From positions 55,001-119,000 of the forward strand of contig NZ_VZRA01000001.1 of NCBI RefSeq assembly GCF_008802355.1: DNA of 64,000 nucleotides. The letters are read 5' to 3'. Source of the stretch: Oryzomonas sagensis (lineage in GTDB: Bacteria; Desulfobacterota; Desulfuromonadia; Geobacterales; Pseudopelobacteraceae). Made by a program: the position numbers and the translations under genes. Below the pieces are notes generated by a model. It was not told where the DNA came from and did no database searches. It saw only the letters and a list, made by a program, of their open reading frames with translations. Positions 7,795-23,796 of this stretch are shown piece by piece; position 1 is the stretch's first letter; each line of letters begins with the position of its first letter.

Positions 7795-10700
7795 GGCCCA
7801 GCACCTCGCGAATTTTCATAAGCAACTCCTTGGGCATATATGGTTTGGCGATAAAAGGCAAGCTTTCATCCAGGACCTCCTGCGAACGGACGATCTCCTC
7901 CGTGTAACCGCTGGTGAAGAGCACCTTTACCCCCGGATTGCCGGCACGGATGGCCTCGTAAACCTCCCGCCCCTTCATTTCCGGCATGATGACGTCCAGG
8001 ATGAGCAGGCCGACCTGTTTGCTGTATTCATAGAACCTGTCCAGGGCCTGCCGCCCGTCCTCGGCCTCAATAACCGAATAGCCGAACTCCTCCAGCACCT
8101 CCCGGGAAAAACGGCGGGTCGACTCGTTGTCGTCGGCCAGGAGGACCACCTGTTGTCCGGCCGGGGGAGACACCCGGGGCGCTTCCTGTTCATCGTCCCC
8201 GGACTCCACGTCCGAACAGGGGAGGTAGATGCGGAAGGACGTCCCCCTTCCCTTCTCGCTGGTGCACACAATGCACCCGTTGTGCTTTTTGACGATGCCG
8301 TAGGCGATGGAAAGACCGAGCCCGGTTCCCTTGCCGGTCCCCTTGGTGGTAAAGAACGGCTCGAAGATATGGCTGATCGTCTCCTCGTCCATGCCCTGGC
8401 CGGTGTCGGAGACCGTCAGTAGCGCAAAGCGGCCGGGCTGACCGAGCCCGTTCATGGCGGCAAACGAGCTGTCCAGGTCCACCAATGCGCTTCCGATGGC
8501 GATCTCGCCCCCGCCCGGCATCGCATCCCGCGCGTTGGCGGCCAGACTCATCAGCACCTGTTCGATCTGGACGCTGTCCACCATGACCGGCAGTTCTTCA
8601 CCGGCCAGGCGGGTGGTGAGGCGGATGTCCTCGCTGATCAGCCGCTGGAGCAGTTTCTGCACCCGTTCGACGATCTCGTTGAGATTGATGTGGCGGGTGA
8701 TCGTATGCTGTTTGCGGCTGAAGGCCAGAAGCCCTTTGGTCAGGCTGGAACCGCGCTCGGCAGTGGCCAGGATCTGCTCCACCCCATTACGGAAGGGGCT
8801 CTCCTCCGGCAGCTTGATCTGCATGATACTGGCGTAACCGATGACCGCCGTCAGGATATTGTTGAAGTCATGGGCGATGCCGCCGGCCAACTGCCCGATG
8901 GCCTCCATCTTCTGGGAGTGGTGCAGCTCGCTCTCCAACCGTTTGCGATCGGTAATATCCTCGTTGATGGCGATAAAGTGGGTGATCAGACCTTTTTCAT
9001 CCCTGATCGGCGCTATCACGGCCTGCTCCCAGTACAGTTCGCCACTCTTCTTGCGGTTGTGAAACTCCCCGCGCCACTCGCGCCCGCCCAGGATCGTCTC
9101 CCAGAGCAGGCGGTATTCCGCCGGGCTGGTGGTGCCGGATTTGAACATGCGGGTGTTCTGGCCGACCGCCTCGACGGAGGAATATCCGGTAACCTCGCTG
9201 AAACGGGGGTTGACGTATTCGATGGTGCCACCCGTATCCGTGATGATGATGGAGGCCGGGTTTTGCTCCACGCCGACCGTGAGTTTCCTCAGGCTTGCCT
9301 CGGCCTTCTGGCGCTCCGCCAGTTCCCGTTGCACGGCATCGTAAAGTTGGGCGTTGTCCAGGGCCACGGAGGCCAGTTCGGCGAATTGCGTCAGAATAGC
9401 CATATGCTCTTCGTCGAACAACCGCCCCTCCTCGAGGAACGCCAAACCGAGCACGCCGACCACCCGGTCGTTCGACTTCAGCGGGACGCCGACCATAGCC
9501 CGCAGCACGATGCGGTCGGCGTCGGGAAGCCGGTGCTCCCATTGACTGTAATTGCCGACGTACAACGGTTCCCCCGTTGTCCAGACCCACCCCGCGATCC
9601 CGTCATGGGGCCCGATGGAACAGTGCACGAACCCCTCAAAGACCCCGCTTTGGCAGACCATGTCCATTGCCGTCCCCTGCCCGTTCAACAGGTAGACATA
9701 GCAATGTTCGGTCCCCACCAGCTTGCCGGCGCGAACGAGAATCGCCTGCAGGAGGCTGGGCACGTCCAGGCGCCTGACCAGCCCCAGGGAGGTCTCGTGG
9801 AATGCGGTCAGGTATTCGTTCTGGCGGCGCAAGAGCTCGTCGGCGCGCTTGCGGTCGCTGATATCCCTGGCCACGGCCATGATCGCCTTGTCACCGTCGA
9901 AATCGATCAGGCGGGCCTTCACCTCCACCGGCAGGGTGACGCCGTTCTTGCAGCGCTGGCAGGTTTCGAAGGTGATCTGCCCCAACGCCATGACGAGGGC
10001 AAACCGCTCGGGGTTGCGCACGGCGTACTCGGGAGTATCCAGATCTCCTGCCTGCATGCCGATGAACTCCTCGCGGCGGAACCCGTAACGGCTGCACGCC
10101 TCGCCGTTCACCTCGAAAATCCTGCCGTCCTTGTGGATAATAAAGATTGCGTCGCTGGACTGTTCGAAGAAGAGCCGAAATTTTTCCTCGCTGACGACGG
10201 TGGAGCGTTCGGCGCGCTTCAGGAGCGTAATATCGGAGAAGCTGCCGCGCAGGCCGACATAGGCGCCGTTCTGGCCGAAGACCGGCCGGCTGAGATAGTT
10301 CGTCCACCGCACCTCGCCGTCTCTGGTGACGATCCGGAACTCCAGGGGCTCGACGGAGTCGGCGGTTGCGCCTCTCCGGTACTGCTCATCCCAATGTTCC
10401 CGATCATCCGGGTGGATAATGGAACTCAACAGGCCGGGCGCGGCGTAGAACTCCTCGGGGCTGTACCCGGTGATGTCGCTGCAGCTGGGAGAGACGTAGT
10501 GCATGGTCGCGCAATCCGGGGCGACCCAGAAGACCATCTCCGAAGAGAAATCCACCACCGTGCGATACAGCACTTCCCGCTTGGCAAGCTCCTCCTGCTG
10601 CTGGTCCACCTCCTTGAGCAGGCGGTTAAAGGCTTGGGCCAGTACAGCCGGTTCATCGCCCCCCGCGGCGGGGAAGAGGCGGTCGTCGCCTGTTTTGGTC

Positions 10701-19800: not shown

Positions 19801-19869
19801 GCATGATGGGTGTCGGTTGTTGTGGCAACGGGTGAGTGGGAGCTAAGGCCGTATCAAAATGATACAATC

Positions 19870-19903
19870 AGAGGCATTCGGAGGCGATCCGGGTGCTTTT
19901 TTT
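19870..19903 (+). terminator. Rho-independent terminator after the LysR gene (copy 3)
   Basis: GCATTCGGA (19874-19882) pairs with TCCGGGTGC (19888-19896), including two G-T pairs, over GGCGA. Seven Ts follow. It is a diverged copy of the terminators at 15474 and 17613, and even the preceding bases (atac-atcagaggca) are shared with copy 2. Confidence 0.8.
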
Positions 19904-19939
19904 GTTTGATACCAGGGGGTTTGAGGGATGGGACGGGAG

Positions 19940-20008
19940 TGGTAATTTTTTTAACACTTTTAGGGTGGTGGCAATATTTTTAACACGTTGATTTTACGAT
20001 TGATATTT
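19940..20008. repeat. Short imperfect direct repeat
   Basis: Two adjacent copies of gg(t/c)aat(a/t)tttttaacac lie at about 19941-19957 and 19970-19985, in the gap before the AT-rich patch. No function is assigned. It marks the transition from GC-rich to AT-richer sequence. Confidence 0.4.
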
Positions 20009-20072
20009 GTGGGTGCGGGGAGTAGAAGGGGGTTGCGGATTTTAGTCGGAGGGTAACGGCGGTGAGCTGTTT

Positions 20073-20288
20073 TTGAGGGAAGTCTTCCTGGAGCCAACAA
20101 TTAAGGATGCTGTCCCCCGAACTCAACTTACTCATTTTGTGATGTGGGCAAGACGATATCCTACCCCAGGGTCAGGCTGGGAAGACAATGCGGAAGTTAT
20201 ATTTACCCTTTCAGAGAAACATGAAATTGACGCAAAGGAGCTTTTTAAGCTTGCGGCGCGTTCTAAGCAGGTTATTGAGACTTTATAA
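20073..20288 (+). CDS. Hypothetical short protein
   Basis: A possible 71-residue protein starting at TTG 20073, or 48 residues if it starts at the internal ATG 20142. It is hydrophilic with no membrane segment or known motif. The central part (MWARRYPTPGSGWEDNAEVIFTLSEKHEIDAKELFKLA) looks protein-like. There is no good ribosome site at either start, so it may be a fragment of a longer gene. I do not recognise it. Confidence 0.3.
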   Translation: MREVFLEPTIKDAVPRTQLTHFVMWARRYPTPGSGWEDNAEVIFTLSEKHEIDAKELFKLAARSKQVIETL

Positions 20289-20379
20289 AGAGGGGGCGCA
20301 CGGGATGCGTCTACATATCATAGAAACTGAGTTCAGTAGGTCTGCCCTTCCAACCTTCTGAACAAGTGAGGACGTAACA

Positions 20380-21144
20380 GTGACAGCTAAGGGTAAAATC
20401 AGTGAGAACATGGTTGAAAACAAGACCAAGGGCCGGGAACTTCAGGCCTATTGCCCTGACTGTAGACGCGATAGAGAGCATGTTGTAGTAGTTTCAGTTG
20501 ACACGTATTTCAGCGAAGACTTCAATGAATACAGTGGTATTTCTGCGGAAGACAACTATCAGGTCATTAAATGTCGGTGTGGGTGTCTTTCGTTCAGGCA
20601 TCTAAACTGGTTTTCAGAATTTCAGGACCAAGAGGCGTCTGGCTACACCGAAATTCTTTACCCGCCGAGAAAACCTGATTCTCTGCCCGTTAAAAAGTTC
20701 CAAAACGTTCCTACCCTTATTTCTAAAATTTATGAAGAGACAATAAAGACTTTCAATGATGGAAGCTATACTCTATGTGCGGCTGGACTACGAGTAATTG
20801 TAGAGGGCATTTGTGAGGTCAATGGGGTAAAAGACGGCCCCGTTACCAGACAGCAAAAAGACGGTAGCGACAAAGACTGCCGCTCAAATAGACTCGAAGG
20901 TAAAATTTATGGGTTATGCGAAAAGGACATTTTGACGAAAAAGAGTGCCGACATGCTACACGAGCACCGGTTTCTTGGTAACGGCGCAGTCCATGACCTT
21001 GCAGAACCGGGGGAGAGGGAATTAAGGATAGCAATTGAATTAATTGAGCATATTCTTGAAGATATTTTCGTAATGCCTCAAAAAGCAGAAACTCTAAAAA
21101 AAATACGGTTGCGGGCCAAGATAAAATCTGTCGATCCGGCCTAA
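20380..21144 (+). CDS. DUF4145-like protein with N-terminal zinc ribbon
   Basis: A 254-residue protein. Two cysteine pairs near the N-terminus (CPDC at about residue 25 and CRCGC at about 65) suggest a zinc ribbon. The C-terminal half (about 110-240) is a helical DUF4145/HEPN-like domain, with GSYTLCAAGLRVIVEGICE and LHEHRFLGNGAVHD as its recognisable stretches. DUF4145 occurs alone or attached to restriction and other defence proteins; its biochemical role is not settled. The start is GTG 20380 with GAGGA 8 bases upstream. Base composition is clearly AT-richer than the his and lpx genes, consistent with transfer. Confidence 0.65.
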   Translation: MTAKGKISENMVENKTKGRELQAYCPDCRRDREHVVVVSVDTYFSEDFNEYSGISAEDNYQVIKCRCGCLSFRHLNWFSEFQDQEASGYTEILYPPRKPDSLPVKKFQNVPTLISKIYEETIKTFNDGSYTLCAAGLRVIVEGICEVNGVKDGPVTRQQKDGSDKDCRSNRLEGKIYGLCEKDILTKKSADMLHEHRFLGNGAVHDLAEPGERELRIAIELIEHILEDIFVMPQKAETLKKIRLRAKIKSVDPA

Positions 21145-21311
21145 GTGTTCACCCGCATATGTAGAAGCCATTAAGGGGATAGACAGCAAATTAGTCGCTG
21201 ATTGATCAATAAGCAGCCTGCCCCTTATTGGTCCCAATTTAAATAACCTGTAGAATATAGACTTTGCCTTCGCGCCACCGTCAAAACTGCTAGGTAGCCC
21301 AAGGACCATTG

Positions 21312-21959
21312 ATGCCACGTAAACATGTAAAATCAAGCACTCAAGCCGCTGTACTTGTTCGGGCTCGCCGGAGATGCTGTATTTGTTTTGGGTTAAATAG
21401 AGATACGACTCTCAAGCAGGGACAAATTGCTCACCTTGATCAAAATCCAGCAAATGATGTTGAGGACAATCTCGCGTTTCTTTGCTTCAACCACCACAAC
21501 CAATACGATAGTACGTATCGACAGAGTAAAAATTTCACAATCGACGAAGTCAAACACTTCAGAGAAGAACTTCATGAGGCAATTCGGAGGGCATTTTCAG
21601 TGGTTGTATCTTTCGGTGAAGCGCAAGTAAATCTTTCTGGTGTTTCGGGCCACTACATCCGTGGCGGTGAATACGAAAGCGCTGATCTGACCATTCAACG
21701 CCTGGATAATGGGCAGTACCACGTTTCTGGATTGGCGCTTTGGGGGACTACACGTGAATTTGGGCCAAACATCGGTGAACTTGACTTCATCGCGGAATTG
21801 AAAGATGACATGATCATTCACACAGAGACCTTTCTTGACCGCACTTACTGTGTCGTTTTGCGTTTTATTGATGACTACCTCACAGTTACAGAACAAAGCT
21901 GGGCCGGCATGTTTGGACTGAATGTCAATTTTAGTGGTGAATATAGAAAGGCGACCTAA
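21312..21959 (+). CDS. HNH-endonuclease-like protein with unknown C-terminal domain
   Basis: A 215-residue protein. The first 75 residues resemble an HNH zinc-finger nuclease: CCIC, then GQIAHLDQNPANDVEDNLAFLC and FNHHNQYDS, which supply the two Cys pairs, a central H and N, and a His pair. The remaining 130 residues are predicted beta-rich and are not recognised. ATG 21312 (with AAGGA upstream) is preferred to the adjacent TTG 21309. Composition is AT-rich like the DUF4145 neighbour 167 bases upstream, and they may have arrived together. The nuclease activity is inferred from motif spacing only. Confidence 0.6.
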   Translation: MPRKHVKSSTQAAVLVRARRRCCICFGLNRDTTLKQGQIAHLDQNPANDVEDNLAFLCFNHHNQYDSTYRQSKNFTIDEVKHFREELHEAIRRAFSVVVSFGEAQVNLSGVSGHYIRGGEYESADLTIQRLDNGQYHVSGLALWGTTREFGPNIGELDFIAELKDDMIIHTETFLDRTYCVVLRFIDDYLTVTEQSWAGMFGLNVNFSGEYRKAT

Positions 21960-21973
21960 CTAAGAATTCTGAA

Positions 21974-22029
21974 AATTCCGGGGACAGTATACAAAACTCT
22001 GAACAATTATATAAACTGTCCCAGGAATT
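21974..22029. repeat. REP-type palindrome (CCGGGGACAGT family)
   Basis: The left arm AATTCCGGGGACAGT (21974-21988) and right arm ACTGTCCCAGGAATT (22015-22029) are inverted with one mismatch, around 26 AT-rich bases. Sequences of this style are typical partners of REP-associated tyrosine transposases. No such transposase gene is present here. Confidence 0.6.
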
Positions 22030-22128
22030 ACCCAAAAAATAGCAGCAGCCATACGGCCACTGCCCCCTCCTGATTATCGTTTCGAATCACTTCCGTAAAC
22101 GCCCGACATGGCAACAGGCTTCCTGCTT

Positions 22129-23373
22129 CTAGTGCACGAAGTTCAAGGTATTGCTGCCGTCATCCACAAAGTAGACCCCACCATTCGAGGCAATCGCCAG
22201 ACCGAAAAGGGTGCCGGCGCCCGGGGGCGAACCGGTGTCATCCAGAAGTTTCGTGGCGATTTGCTCCCCTTTCGGATCGAACACGGTAATAAACCCGTCA
22301 TTACCGTTGACGGTATAAATATTGCCGAAGGTGTCAACGGCAAGGCCAAGCGGGTCGTTCAGGTTGCCGCCGGATGTAAGGGTGGTGCCGGTTCCGGCCG
22401 ACGTCGTTCGATCGAGCGCATCCGGAATCACCGCGATCCGATTGTTCAGGCTGTCTGCAACGTACAGCAGACTGTCCGGCTTCGGCTTTTCTCCATTTTG
22501 CGCCACTGCCGCATCGCTGTCACGACCACTGCCGCTGACCGGACTGAGGCCGAGACCGGTCGGCCCGATGACAAGCGCAGCGGGATCGGTGCGTTCAGGG
22601 AACCCCGTCCCGATCGCGGCGATCGACTTGATGCTGGGCATGCTCCCCTTGGATATCTGGAGATCAATGCGGATTACGGTGCCCTCATTCACGGTTTGCC
22701 CGTTGGCCGCCACGGTGCCGTTCAGCACATTGGAGACGAACAGTTTGGCGCCCGAGTTGTCCTCAAATGCGGTCATGTCCCATGGGCCATTGATTGGCGC
22801 GCCGGAGAAGGTTTCCACCGCATTCCCCTTGCTGTCGAACACGATCAGGCAACCGGCCTGGGCCGTTGCAGCCGTGCCGTCCGAAGTCGGCAGACTCCCC
22901 ACGATTACCCACCCGGAACGAAGCACAACGAGGGCGGTTGTCAGTCCGACACCCCCAGGGCATGGGCCGGGCAATTTATTGGCGTCAAGCTGGGCGAACA
23001 GGTCGACAGCCCCGCCCGGCGAGACTTCGACGATGGTCGTTCCCGTACCTTGCAGGTTCGCGCTGCTGTTGAAATTGCTCACCAGGATATGGCCTCTTTT
23101 CAGATGCCCCACGGTTTGCTCCACGATGGCGACGCCATAGGGGTTGATATCACCGTTTGACGGGACTGTTGAAGCTATCGTTGAAATTGTGGCGTGGGAG
23201 AAGAGTCCGGCGCTAGGTGCATTGTTTGAAACGAGGGAAGCTGCTGCGGTGCTTGTGGTCCCCATACTCGGGGAAGATCCGCCGCCACTACCACATGCCG
23301 TCAGAATGATCAGCGGGGCAAGCATGACGAGTGACAAGAGGCGAAGTTTGAACGTATATGGTAACGGGTTCAT
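22129..23373 (-). CDS. Beta-propeller lipoprotein (NHL/TIGR03118-like)
   Basis: A 414-residue exported lipoprotein. The N-terminal signal ends in a lipobox LTAC (cysteine at about residue 27), followed by a Gly/Ser-rich spacer. The body contains repeated propeller-like blades such as GLAVDTFGNIYTVNGNDGFITVFDPKG and LLYVADSLNNRIAVIPD. AGGAGGTGCAAC precedes the ATG, an excellent ribosome site. It is probably outer-membrane anchored, with an unknown ligand or enzymatic role. A second propeller lipoprotein lies in the lipid A cluster at 43.2 kb. Confidence 0.8.
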   Translation of the reverse strand: MNPLPYTFKLRLLSLVMLAPLIILTACGSGGGSSPSMGTTSTAAASLVSNNAPSAGLFSHATISTIASTVPSNGDINPYGVAIVEQTVGHLKRGHILVSNFNSSANLQGTGTTIVEVSPGGAVDLFAQLDANKLPGPCPGGVGLTTALVVLRSGWVIVGSLPTSDGTAATAQAGCLIVFDSKGNAVETFSGAPINGPWDMTAFEDNSGAKLFVSNVLNGTVAANGQTVNEGTVIRIDLQISKGSMPSIKSIAAIGTGFPERTDPAALVIGPTGLGLSPVSGSGRDSDAAVAQNGEKPKPDSLLYVADSLNNRIAVIPDALDRTTSAGTGTTLTSGGNLNDPLGLAVDTFGNIYTVNGNDGFITVFDPKGEQIATKLLDDTGSPPGAGTLFGLAIASNGGVYFVDDGSNTLNFVH

Positions 23374-23796
23374 GTTGCACCTCCTTACTTCGCTTTAACA
23401 TTTTGACACCAGAGTAGATCACTCGTCGCGAATGCCATGGCAGCAACACGACAAAAAAGATTATCTTACTCTTAAAAATACTATGTACCATCCCCGCTAT
23501 CCAAGTCAAACCAATTAATATACCACTTTCTACCATATAGAGGCCATGTCGGAAGCGGAATTACGTCATTACCTTAAACAGGGTCGCTCCTCATTTTAAT
23601 AAGGCCGCCCCCTTTTCTGAGCCTTTATCGGCTGATTCAACCTAAATTCCAGCATGTCCACAAAGTTTTCCGATCCAAAGGGCCGCCCAGCTCCTTATTT
23701 GCCCAATATTTCCTTACTTCCCGTTTCAATTAATCGGTATAATCGCCCAAATTAGTGAACGCAAACCATCCACACCAGGGAAATGAGGATCGACCG
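23374..23796. other. Intergenic region, nothing assigned
   Basis: A 423-base AT-richer gap between the divergent propeller lipoprotein and a small lipoprotein gene. Short open frames here have no coding character. It must hold both promoters, but no convincing -35/-10 pair, hairpin or known regulatory RNA was recognised. Confidence 0.4.

Follow-up and report, generated by a model that had tools for sequence, protein, structure and literature searches.

An AT-rich patch of acquired DNA in Oryzomonas sagensis encodes a candidate sensor-gated HNH nuclease behind a genus-wide interspersed element

Do the DUF4145/HEPN-like gene and the HNH-like nuclease gene that lie next to each other in an AT-rich patch of Oryzomonas sagensis form a small defence unit, as the original prediction proposed, or did they come to share this place separately? 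The patch occupies positions 20073-21959 of the window (the whole stretch of 64,000 nucleotides analysed here), and the sharp shift in composition described for it was confirmed: its GC content is 0.447 versus 0.602 for the whole window, the lowest GC in the 64 kb falls in windows of patch length overlapping 20073-21959, and it is the AT-richest 1.9 kb of the window. On the + strand it carries a 71-aa ORF, the DUF4145 gene and the HNH-like gene, followed by an imperfect palindrome. The neighbouring genes are ordinary on both sides, with chemotaxis, LrgA, LrgB and LysR genes on the left and NHL/SGL, HTH and aminotransferase genes on the right; no tRNA was found at the site, and no Rfam RNA matched there. 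The patch is a small piece of acquired DNA and is referred to as cargo below. The palindrome placed beside the genes by the original prediction is present (21974-22029, unstranded and REP-like, with 23-nt arms at 21974-21996 and 22007-22029 that are 83% complementary) and folds as single-stranded DNA with a z of -4.58. The name "REP" fits it loosely, because the core occurs at only two sites in the genome with up to one mismatch allowed.

The HNH-barrel protein (P0002, 215 aa; 21312-21959, + strand) starts at the ATG at 21312 and has full-length relatives at 41-60% identity. Pfam returned no match above cut-off, and a PDB sequence search with P0002, an HNH profile and the DUF4145 protein gave nothing useful. 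Its identity as an HNH protein comes from weak PADLOC matches (best E 7.2e-4), a weak IscB match, conserved motifs and the predicted fold; the NCBIfam matches to HNH effectors are, like those in PADLOC, weak. Residues C22, C25, H41, N53, C58, H61 and H62 are invariant in nine aligned sequences and, as expected by analogy with HNH enzymes, would fit a zinc-stabilised HNH site. In the C-terminal domain, R148 and the stretch G151-P152-N153 are invariant too. Asp or His is often found directly before the HNH-site His; in P0002 the residue preceding H41 is Ala, and metal binding may therefore differ.

Structure prediction divides the protein into an HNH domain (residues 4-98; 21321-21605, + strand) and a C-terminal barrel (residues 106-215; 21627-21956, + strand). 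The best full-length AlphaFold2 model, built from nine sequences, has a pLDDT of 74.2 and a pTM of 0.52, the other four models reaching a pLDDT of 51-61. Residues 4-98 of this predicted model superpose on Pseudomonas syringae Cap5 (8fmf_A) with Z 9.6 and rmsd 2.4 over 86 residues at 22% identity, and the Foldseek list for the full-length model includes Cap5 8fm1_F at E 5.8e-3. Predicted alone, the C-terminal domain reaches a pLDDT of 81.6 and a pTM of 0.75 (four of five models above 79) and consists of eight antiparallel strands and no helix. The closest structural match, at Z 9.7 over 77 residues, is to the D-aminopeptidase barrel (1ei5); designed barrels, NanoLuc, an FABP-type allergen and FABPs come next at Z 7.6-9.0, where values of 7-9 for a small barrel may reflect no more than a common arrangement. 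Neither the full-length nor the C-domain model had a Foldseek match at E<=0.001 (best UnaG, 1.8e-3 and 5.9e-3), so that "calycin-like" describes the fold and not a proven kinship; a BFVD search with the barrel likewise gave nothing at E<=0.001. The eight-stranded up-and-down barrel of calycin-type proteins (FABP, lipocalin, avidin) is predicted in P0002 too, with weak similarity and no match to a calycin sequence family in Pfam. Together, the conserved motifs, the predicted HNH fold and the predicted eight-stranded barrel bear out the description of this gene product as an HNH-type protein with a beta-rich C-terminus.

Full-length relatives were identified at loci L006-L013, on Agrobacterium fabrum plasmids and in genomes G508 and G640, giving 11 other full-length loci when A. 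fabrum, with ten records of nearly the same protein, is counted once. The only relative on a viral contig has the same protein sequence as L010 and was therefore not counted as independent. The gene is rare: it was found in 3/397 genomes of one family (E<=1e-40), and in the sample of the window's phylum 2/297 genomes, the window's own included, match the whole model and 10 have any match. In A. fabrum, a KAP NTPase gene, qatC, qatD and a DUF2971 gene precede the HNH-barrel gene; farther off lies a pair of genes for an OLD-TOPRIM ATPase and UvrD. At L010 the gene lies between terminase and portal genes, at L011 an integrase is 0.27 kb away, and at L012 it begins 2 bp after uvrB. G508 carries the gene alone, at GC 0.44 in DNA of GC ~0.64, 27 bp after the end of an mdh-type gene and 30 bp before the start of a sucC-type gene; from this lone AT-rich insert we conclude that the gene can travel by itself. 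Since many full-length relatives sit in such ordinary surroundings (mdh/sucC, uvrB, VapC-like), the defence context of the family is partial. DUF2971 genes adjoin HNH-barrel genes in two unrelated hosts (L008:6689-7639 and L017:9142-9966).

Other proteins have no more than the HNH part in common with P0002; they are encoded at L005/L065 (G004), L015 and L016, twice in G094 and once each in G065 and G273, the G065 and G094 proteins joining this HNH module to different C-termini. In G065 the HNH gene comes after SIR2 ORFs that are split and a gene for HerA (E 3e-239); in G094 the two HNH genes flank or follow genes for an SNF2-type helicase and AlbA_2 and a fragment of a type IIG enzyme (E 5e-233). 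Defence neighbourhoods, which the original prediction expected, and mobile ones do exist for HNH relatives (Qat, SIR2-HerA, type IIG, prophage). The SIR2 of the G065 SIR2-HerA pair reads as two overlapping ORFs (L060:3279-4383). The two HNH proteins of G094 (L059:6316-7023 and 9499-10215) are near-identical and have a helical-looking C-terminus; their genes, separated by 2.5 kb, belong to a restriction/helicase island.

What might such a protein do? From the family, domain order, invariant residues, distribution and contexts observed, and from folds that are predicted only, we infer ligand binding, gating, DNA cutting and defence for P0002. The analogy is with the CBASS effector Cap5, whose HNH dimers are activated for DNA degradation by 3',2'-cGAMP on the SAVED domain, according to the available text of PMC8568899. 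On this analogy we propose the barrel as sensor and the HNH domain as executor: P0002 would be a stand-alone, sensor-gated one-gene HNH nuclease that defends by infection-triggered DNA cutting, a reading to which we give slightly less than an even chance, and its role would probably be anti-phage. The HNH domain would be held in an inactive dimer; a ligand made or released in phage or plasmid infection would bind the barrel; binding would rearrange or multimerise the protein; and the HNH domain would then cut DNA and stop the infection, perhaps at the cell's cost. Cap5 and P0002 share the N-terminal HNH fold, as predicted for P0002 by the model and superposition above, a C-terminal domain of regulatory size, and zinc-finger-type cysteines near the HNH site, for which zinc is described in the available text on Cap5 (PMC8568899). 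They differ in the C-terminal domain, which in P0002 is ~110 aa and predicted as an eight-stranded barrel rather than SAVED, and the sequence identity is confined to the HNH part. On the predicted models, the HNH-barrel protein may plausibly be a new sensor variant within a known effector class. No CD-NTase or other nucleotidyltransferase gene was found among the eight window neighbours (Pfam) or the annotated A. fabrum neighbours, the other loci being scanned in part, and the neighbours scanned included no ligand-making partner. The literature searched, which covered few subscription papers and preprints, held no description of an HNH-calycin defence protein or of the ~180-bp element discussed below. 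A paper returned for HNH, lipocalin and antiphage (PMC12429752) was set aside, its available text concerning unrelated prophage lipocalin genes. If the sensor-gated reading is right, the HNH-barrel protein is a single-gene relative of the CBASS effectors, with a small barrel in place of their second-messenger sensor, and what such barrels sense during infection can be tested with one gene.

Chief among the rivals is a reader of modified DNA: P0002 would be a type IV-like modification-dependent restriction enzyme whose barrel recognises modified bases and whose HNH domain cleaves foreign DNA that bears them, with no diffusible ligand. A single gene without a methyltransferase partner fits this, and fusions of HNH domains to modification readers are known (available text of PMC11037411). 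HNH type IV enzymes and P0002 have in common one gene with an HNH and a second domain. The second domain of P0002, however, is predicted to be helix-free, its structural neighbours are ligand-binding barrels of the calycin type, and no SRA, YTH, EVE or winged-helix reader is among the best 50 structural matches listed; among these matches it is nearer to calycin-type barrels than to known readers, and we regard the type IV reading as unlikely. Also on the unlikely side, and rated a little lower, is the view that P0002 has another role or no present function, being either a decaying acquired gene or a small-molecule-responsive nuclease outside phage defence: the adjoining 71-aa ORF does look like a remnant, but the P0002 ORF is intact and has kept the invariant positions. 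The lesser rival, an HNH endonuclease that stands alone as a homing or passenger gene and is selfish and not defensive, would account for a patchily distributed single gene, for the lone insert in the housekeeping cluster of G508 and for the copy between terminase and portal genes at L010. We nevertheless consider it improbable, as the surroundings of the relatives differ, with no shared target gene among those read, and the A. fabrum copy follows DUF2971 and qat genes; to our knowledge, the P0002-type C-domain is also no usual DNA-binding module of homing enzymes, which counts against homing as well.

The second intact gene of the patch encodes P0001 (254 aa; 20380-21144, + strand, GTG start), a zinc-ribbon-like protein with a DUF4145 domain of the HEPN clan. 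The match to Pfam DUF4145 (PF13643; E 3.5e-11, 43.5 bits, cut-off 23.1) spans the full model length and confirms the predicted DUF4145/HEPN-like domain; a DUF7835 match on the Cys-rich N-terminus is below cut-off. The motif R-F-[LM]-G-N-x-A-x-H and the Cys positions are common to P0001 and two relatives, and R-x7-H is kept in 3/3 aligned sequences. The HEPN catalytic motif is usually quoted as R-x4-6-H, a spacing from which that in P0001 differs; no partner was found for the protein. P0001 is probably a HEPN-type RNase effector, a function that we infer from the family. In the available text of PMC3710099, DUF4145 is a group of the HEPN superfamily that often occurs with R-M, McrBC and other conflict genes, and zinc-ribbon fusions, as in P0001, are listed for it. 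A DUF4145 domain is also present in BxaP, which acts against T4 (available text of PMC10799925); the same text describes BxaP as BREX-associated, with an N-terminal DUF4145 and a HEAT-like C-terminus, whereas P0001 combines a zinc ribbon with DUF4145. Five relatives of P0001 were found, on four plasmid records and in 1/56 other related genomes; UmuDC/XRE genes and MazEF-like genes neighbour DUF4145 relatives at the loci examined, and no viral relatives were found.

The genes for P0001 and P0002 share a strand and a composition and are 167 bp apart. No DUF4145 relative was detected near the HNH-barrel gene at any of the 11 other full-length loci (tblastn of P0001, E<=0.01), and no HNH domain near DUF4145 relatives at the two loci examined of the five found, H13-H15 being left out (0/2; the Enterobacter kobei plasmid L018 and G041, L020 and L066), within flanks of 0.03-10 kb that were often cut by contig ends. 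Over 156 loci, tblastn of P0001 matched only the window copies, L018 and G041 (L020, L066). With no recurrence of the pair in any other genome within the searched flanks, the original prediction of one unit is unsupported, and the adjacency in the window looks incidental. That a HEPN RNase or regulator and an HNH nuclease make up a two-gene toxin/regulator defence unit is, for all the shared strand, spacing and composition and the known company of DUF4145 genes with R-M and McrBC genes (available text of PMC3710099), very improbable and was rejected, since co-occurrence is lacking in the loci searched, the HNH gene stands alone in G508, and the DUF4145 relatives adjoin UmuDC/XRE and MazEF-like genes instead. 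P0001 appears to be the product of a separate HEPN-type gene that shares its place with the HNH gene by chance.

A third gene probably left its trace in the 71-aa ORF (20073-20288, + strand). This ORF resembles residues 145-207 of a 210-aa HEPN-like plasmid protein (51% over 63 columns) and, because it matches only the C-terminal third, we read it from the alignment as the probable 5'-truncated tail of a broken gene. The 210-aa relative itself scores 21.8 bits against Pfam HEPN, just under the cut-off of 22. This tail starts no more than ~70 bp past the point where the interspersed element described below ends. A DUF3265 gene, of a kind typical of integron cassettes, adjoins the gene for the relative of the 71-aa ORF. 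An integron cassette origin for the slots was considered and rejected, the TIGR02249 integron integrase being over cut-off in 0/6 genomes of the genus.

How did the patch come to lie here? The sister species (G002) aligns with the window at 93.6% up to 19802 and at 90.7% from 23686, with a short repeat only in between. The segment present here and missing there (19803-23685, unstranded) contains the element, the patch, the palindrome and an NHL/SGL-repeat protein gene (22129-23373, - strand) that has a GC of 0.59 and lies outside the AT-rich patch; judged by the alignment, the difference may be either an insertion here or a deletion there. In G003 and G004, for which short loci were compared, similarity to the window stops at ~19765.

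The element itself (19850-20032, + strand) comprises a terminator-like hairpin (~19870-19900), a tandem pair of TTAA palindromes with a 29-bp spacing and a conserved 3' part, and ends at ~20032, 40 bp before the patch begins. We searched 57 related genomes with a sequence-only model of 15 copies (E<=1e-6, strict filters): the ~180-bp element is present in all six genomes of the genus (20, 5, 24, 36, 25 and 7 matches) and in 0/51 of the others. Besides the window, copies lie in loci L068, L070-L079 and L110-L145. They are ~177 or ~149 bp long, the long form with two TTAA palindromes and the shorter, as lengths and alignment indicate, without about one 29-bp unit. The hairpin still pairs where one arm or both arms have changed, and the palindromes coincide in part with TTAACA boxes that resemble promoter sequences (6 found versus 3.3 expected). 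Rfam gave no match to the element, and none was found in viral contigs (one exact pattern) or in phage and plasmid records. Like STAR and RU repeats, it is multi-copy, intergenic and 100-200 bp long, and core-genome defence hotspots offer a parallel of fixed slots with exchanging defence genes (available texts of PMC3532100, PMC2759123 and PMC10250203). Unlike these, it is a single oriented repeat, equipped with a terminator-like hairpin and with palindromes in pairs, that stands at one edge of many small slots.

The orientation is reflected in the flanking DNA. Among 44 copies in the window's genome (G000) and the sister species, 42 have more than 700 bp on both sides, and their mean GC is 0.610 over 1.5 kb upstream versus 0.505 downstream (Wilcoxon p 1.5e-7), with copies that are not independent because the two genomes share sites. 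Downstream GC is lower at 18/20 copies in G000 and 19/22 in G002; the step sits at the element and lasts 2 kb. Among ORFs of 100 aa or more, GC is below 0.51 in 3/80 upstream versus 42/104 downstream, at 29/44 copies; the ORFs are longest-frame picks, some of them counted for two neighbouring copies. In this genus the element often marks the start of foreign genes.

Thirteen of the 20 G000 copies have a G002 copy behind the same upstream 400 bp (84-98%). At these orthologous sites the downstream 400 bp is homologous at six, not homologous at six and homologous over only 62 bp at one, so the downstream DNA differs between the two genomes at 7/13. A 1208-aa SIR2-NB-ARC protein is encoded directly behind one G002 copy (L127:6315-9941, G002:C2), at a further site (C2:215854) that holds 4.0 kb in G002 versus 25 bp in G000. 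In a hand-picked set of 20 of the 42 AT-rich downstream ORFs, eight proteins match PADLOC at E<=1e-3 and six at E<=1e-10 (Dsr1, IetA, HEC-04, LmuA/ThsA-like SIR2, PDC-S52 and GajB-like), versus three and one of ten upstream genes, which were chosen as recognisable; the upstream matches are of two chemotaxis proteins to ZorA and one methyltransferase to mad2.

These observations raise the possibility, which we hold to be somewhat doubtful, that the element acts as an oriented border or landing site for foreign genes and is specific to the genus, with tens of fixed slots per genome, each with a conserved upstream flank and exchangeable cargo, often defence, right after it; the patch would be one slot and the HNH-barrel gene a swapped-in single-gene defence system of new sensor-nuclease architecture. 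Several results count against slots of this kind: at the window locus both element and cargo are missing from G002, at C2:215854 that genome has ~0.9 kb extra upstream of the element, 6/13 orthologous sites keep their downstream DNA, and many of the downstream genes listed are ordinary (secreted, chemotaxis, transport). Seven of the 20 G000 copies, the window copy included, are without an orthologous copy among the G002 loci compared. If the slot reading is right, defence cargo in the genus could be located simply by looking at what comes after each repeat, and the element would offer a system for studying how fixed places for the exchange of defence genes are maintained in bacteria; it is worth a separate study.

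A short element copy in G000 is followed by a gene for a Dsr1-like SIR2 protein (L120:70-3918, G000:C1), and a copy in G002 by an IetA-like gene (L131:2400-3383, G002:C2). In G004, another HNH-type ORF (L046:3312-4037; reads CPFCNSNDVDHFQFHHIDENPENN) lies after an element copy.
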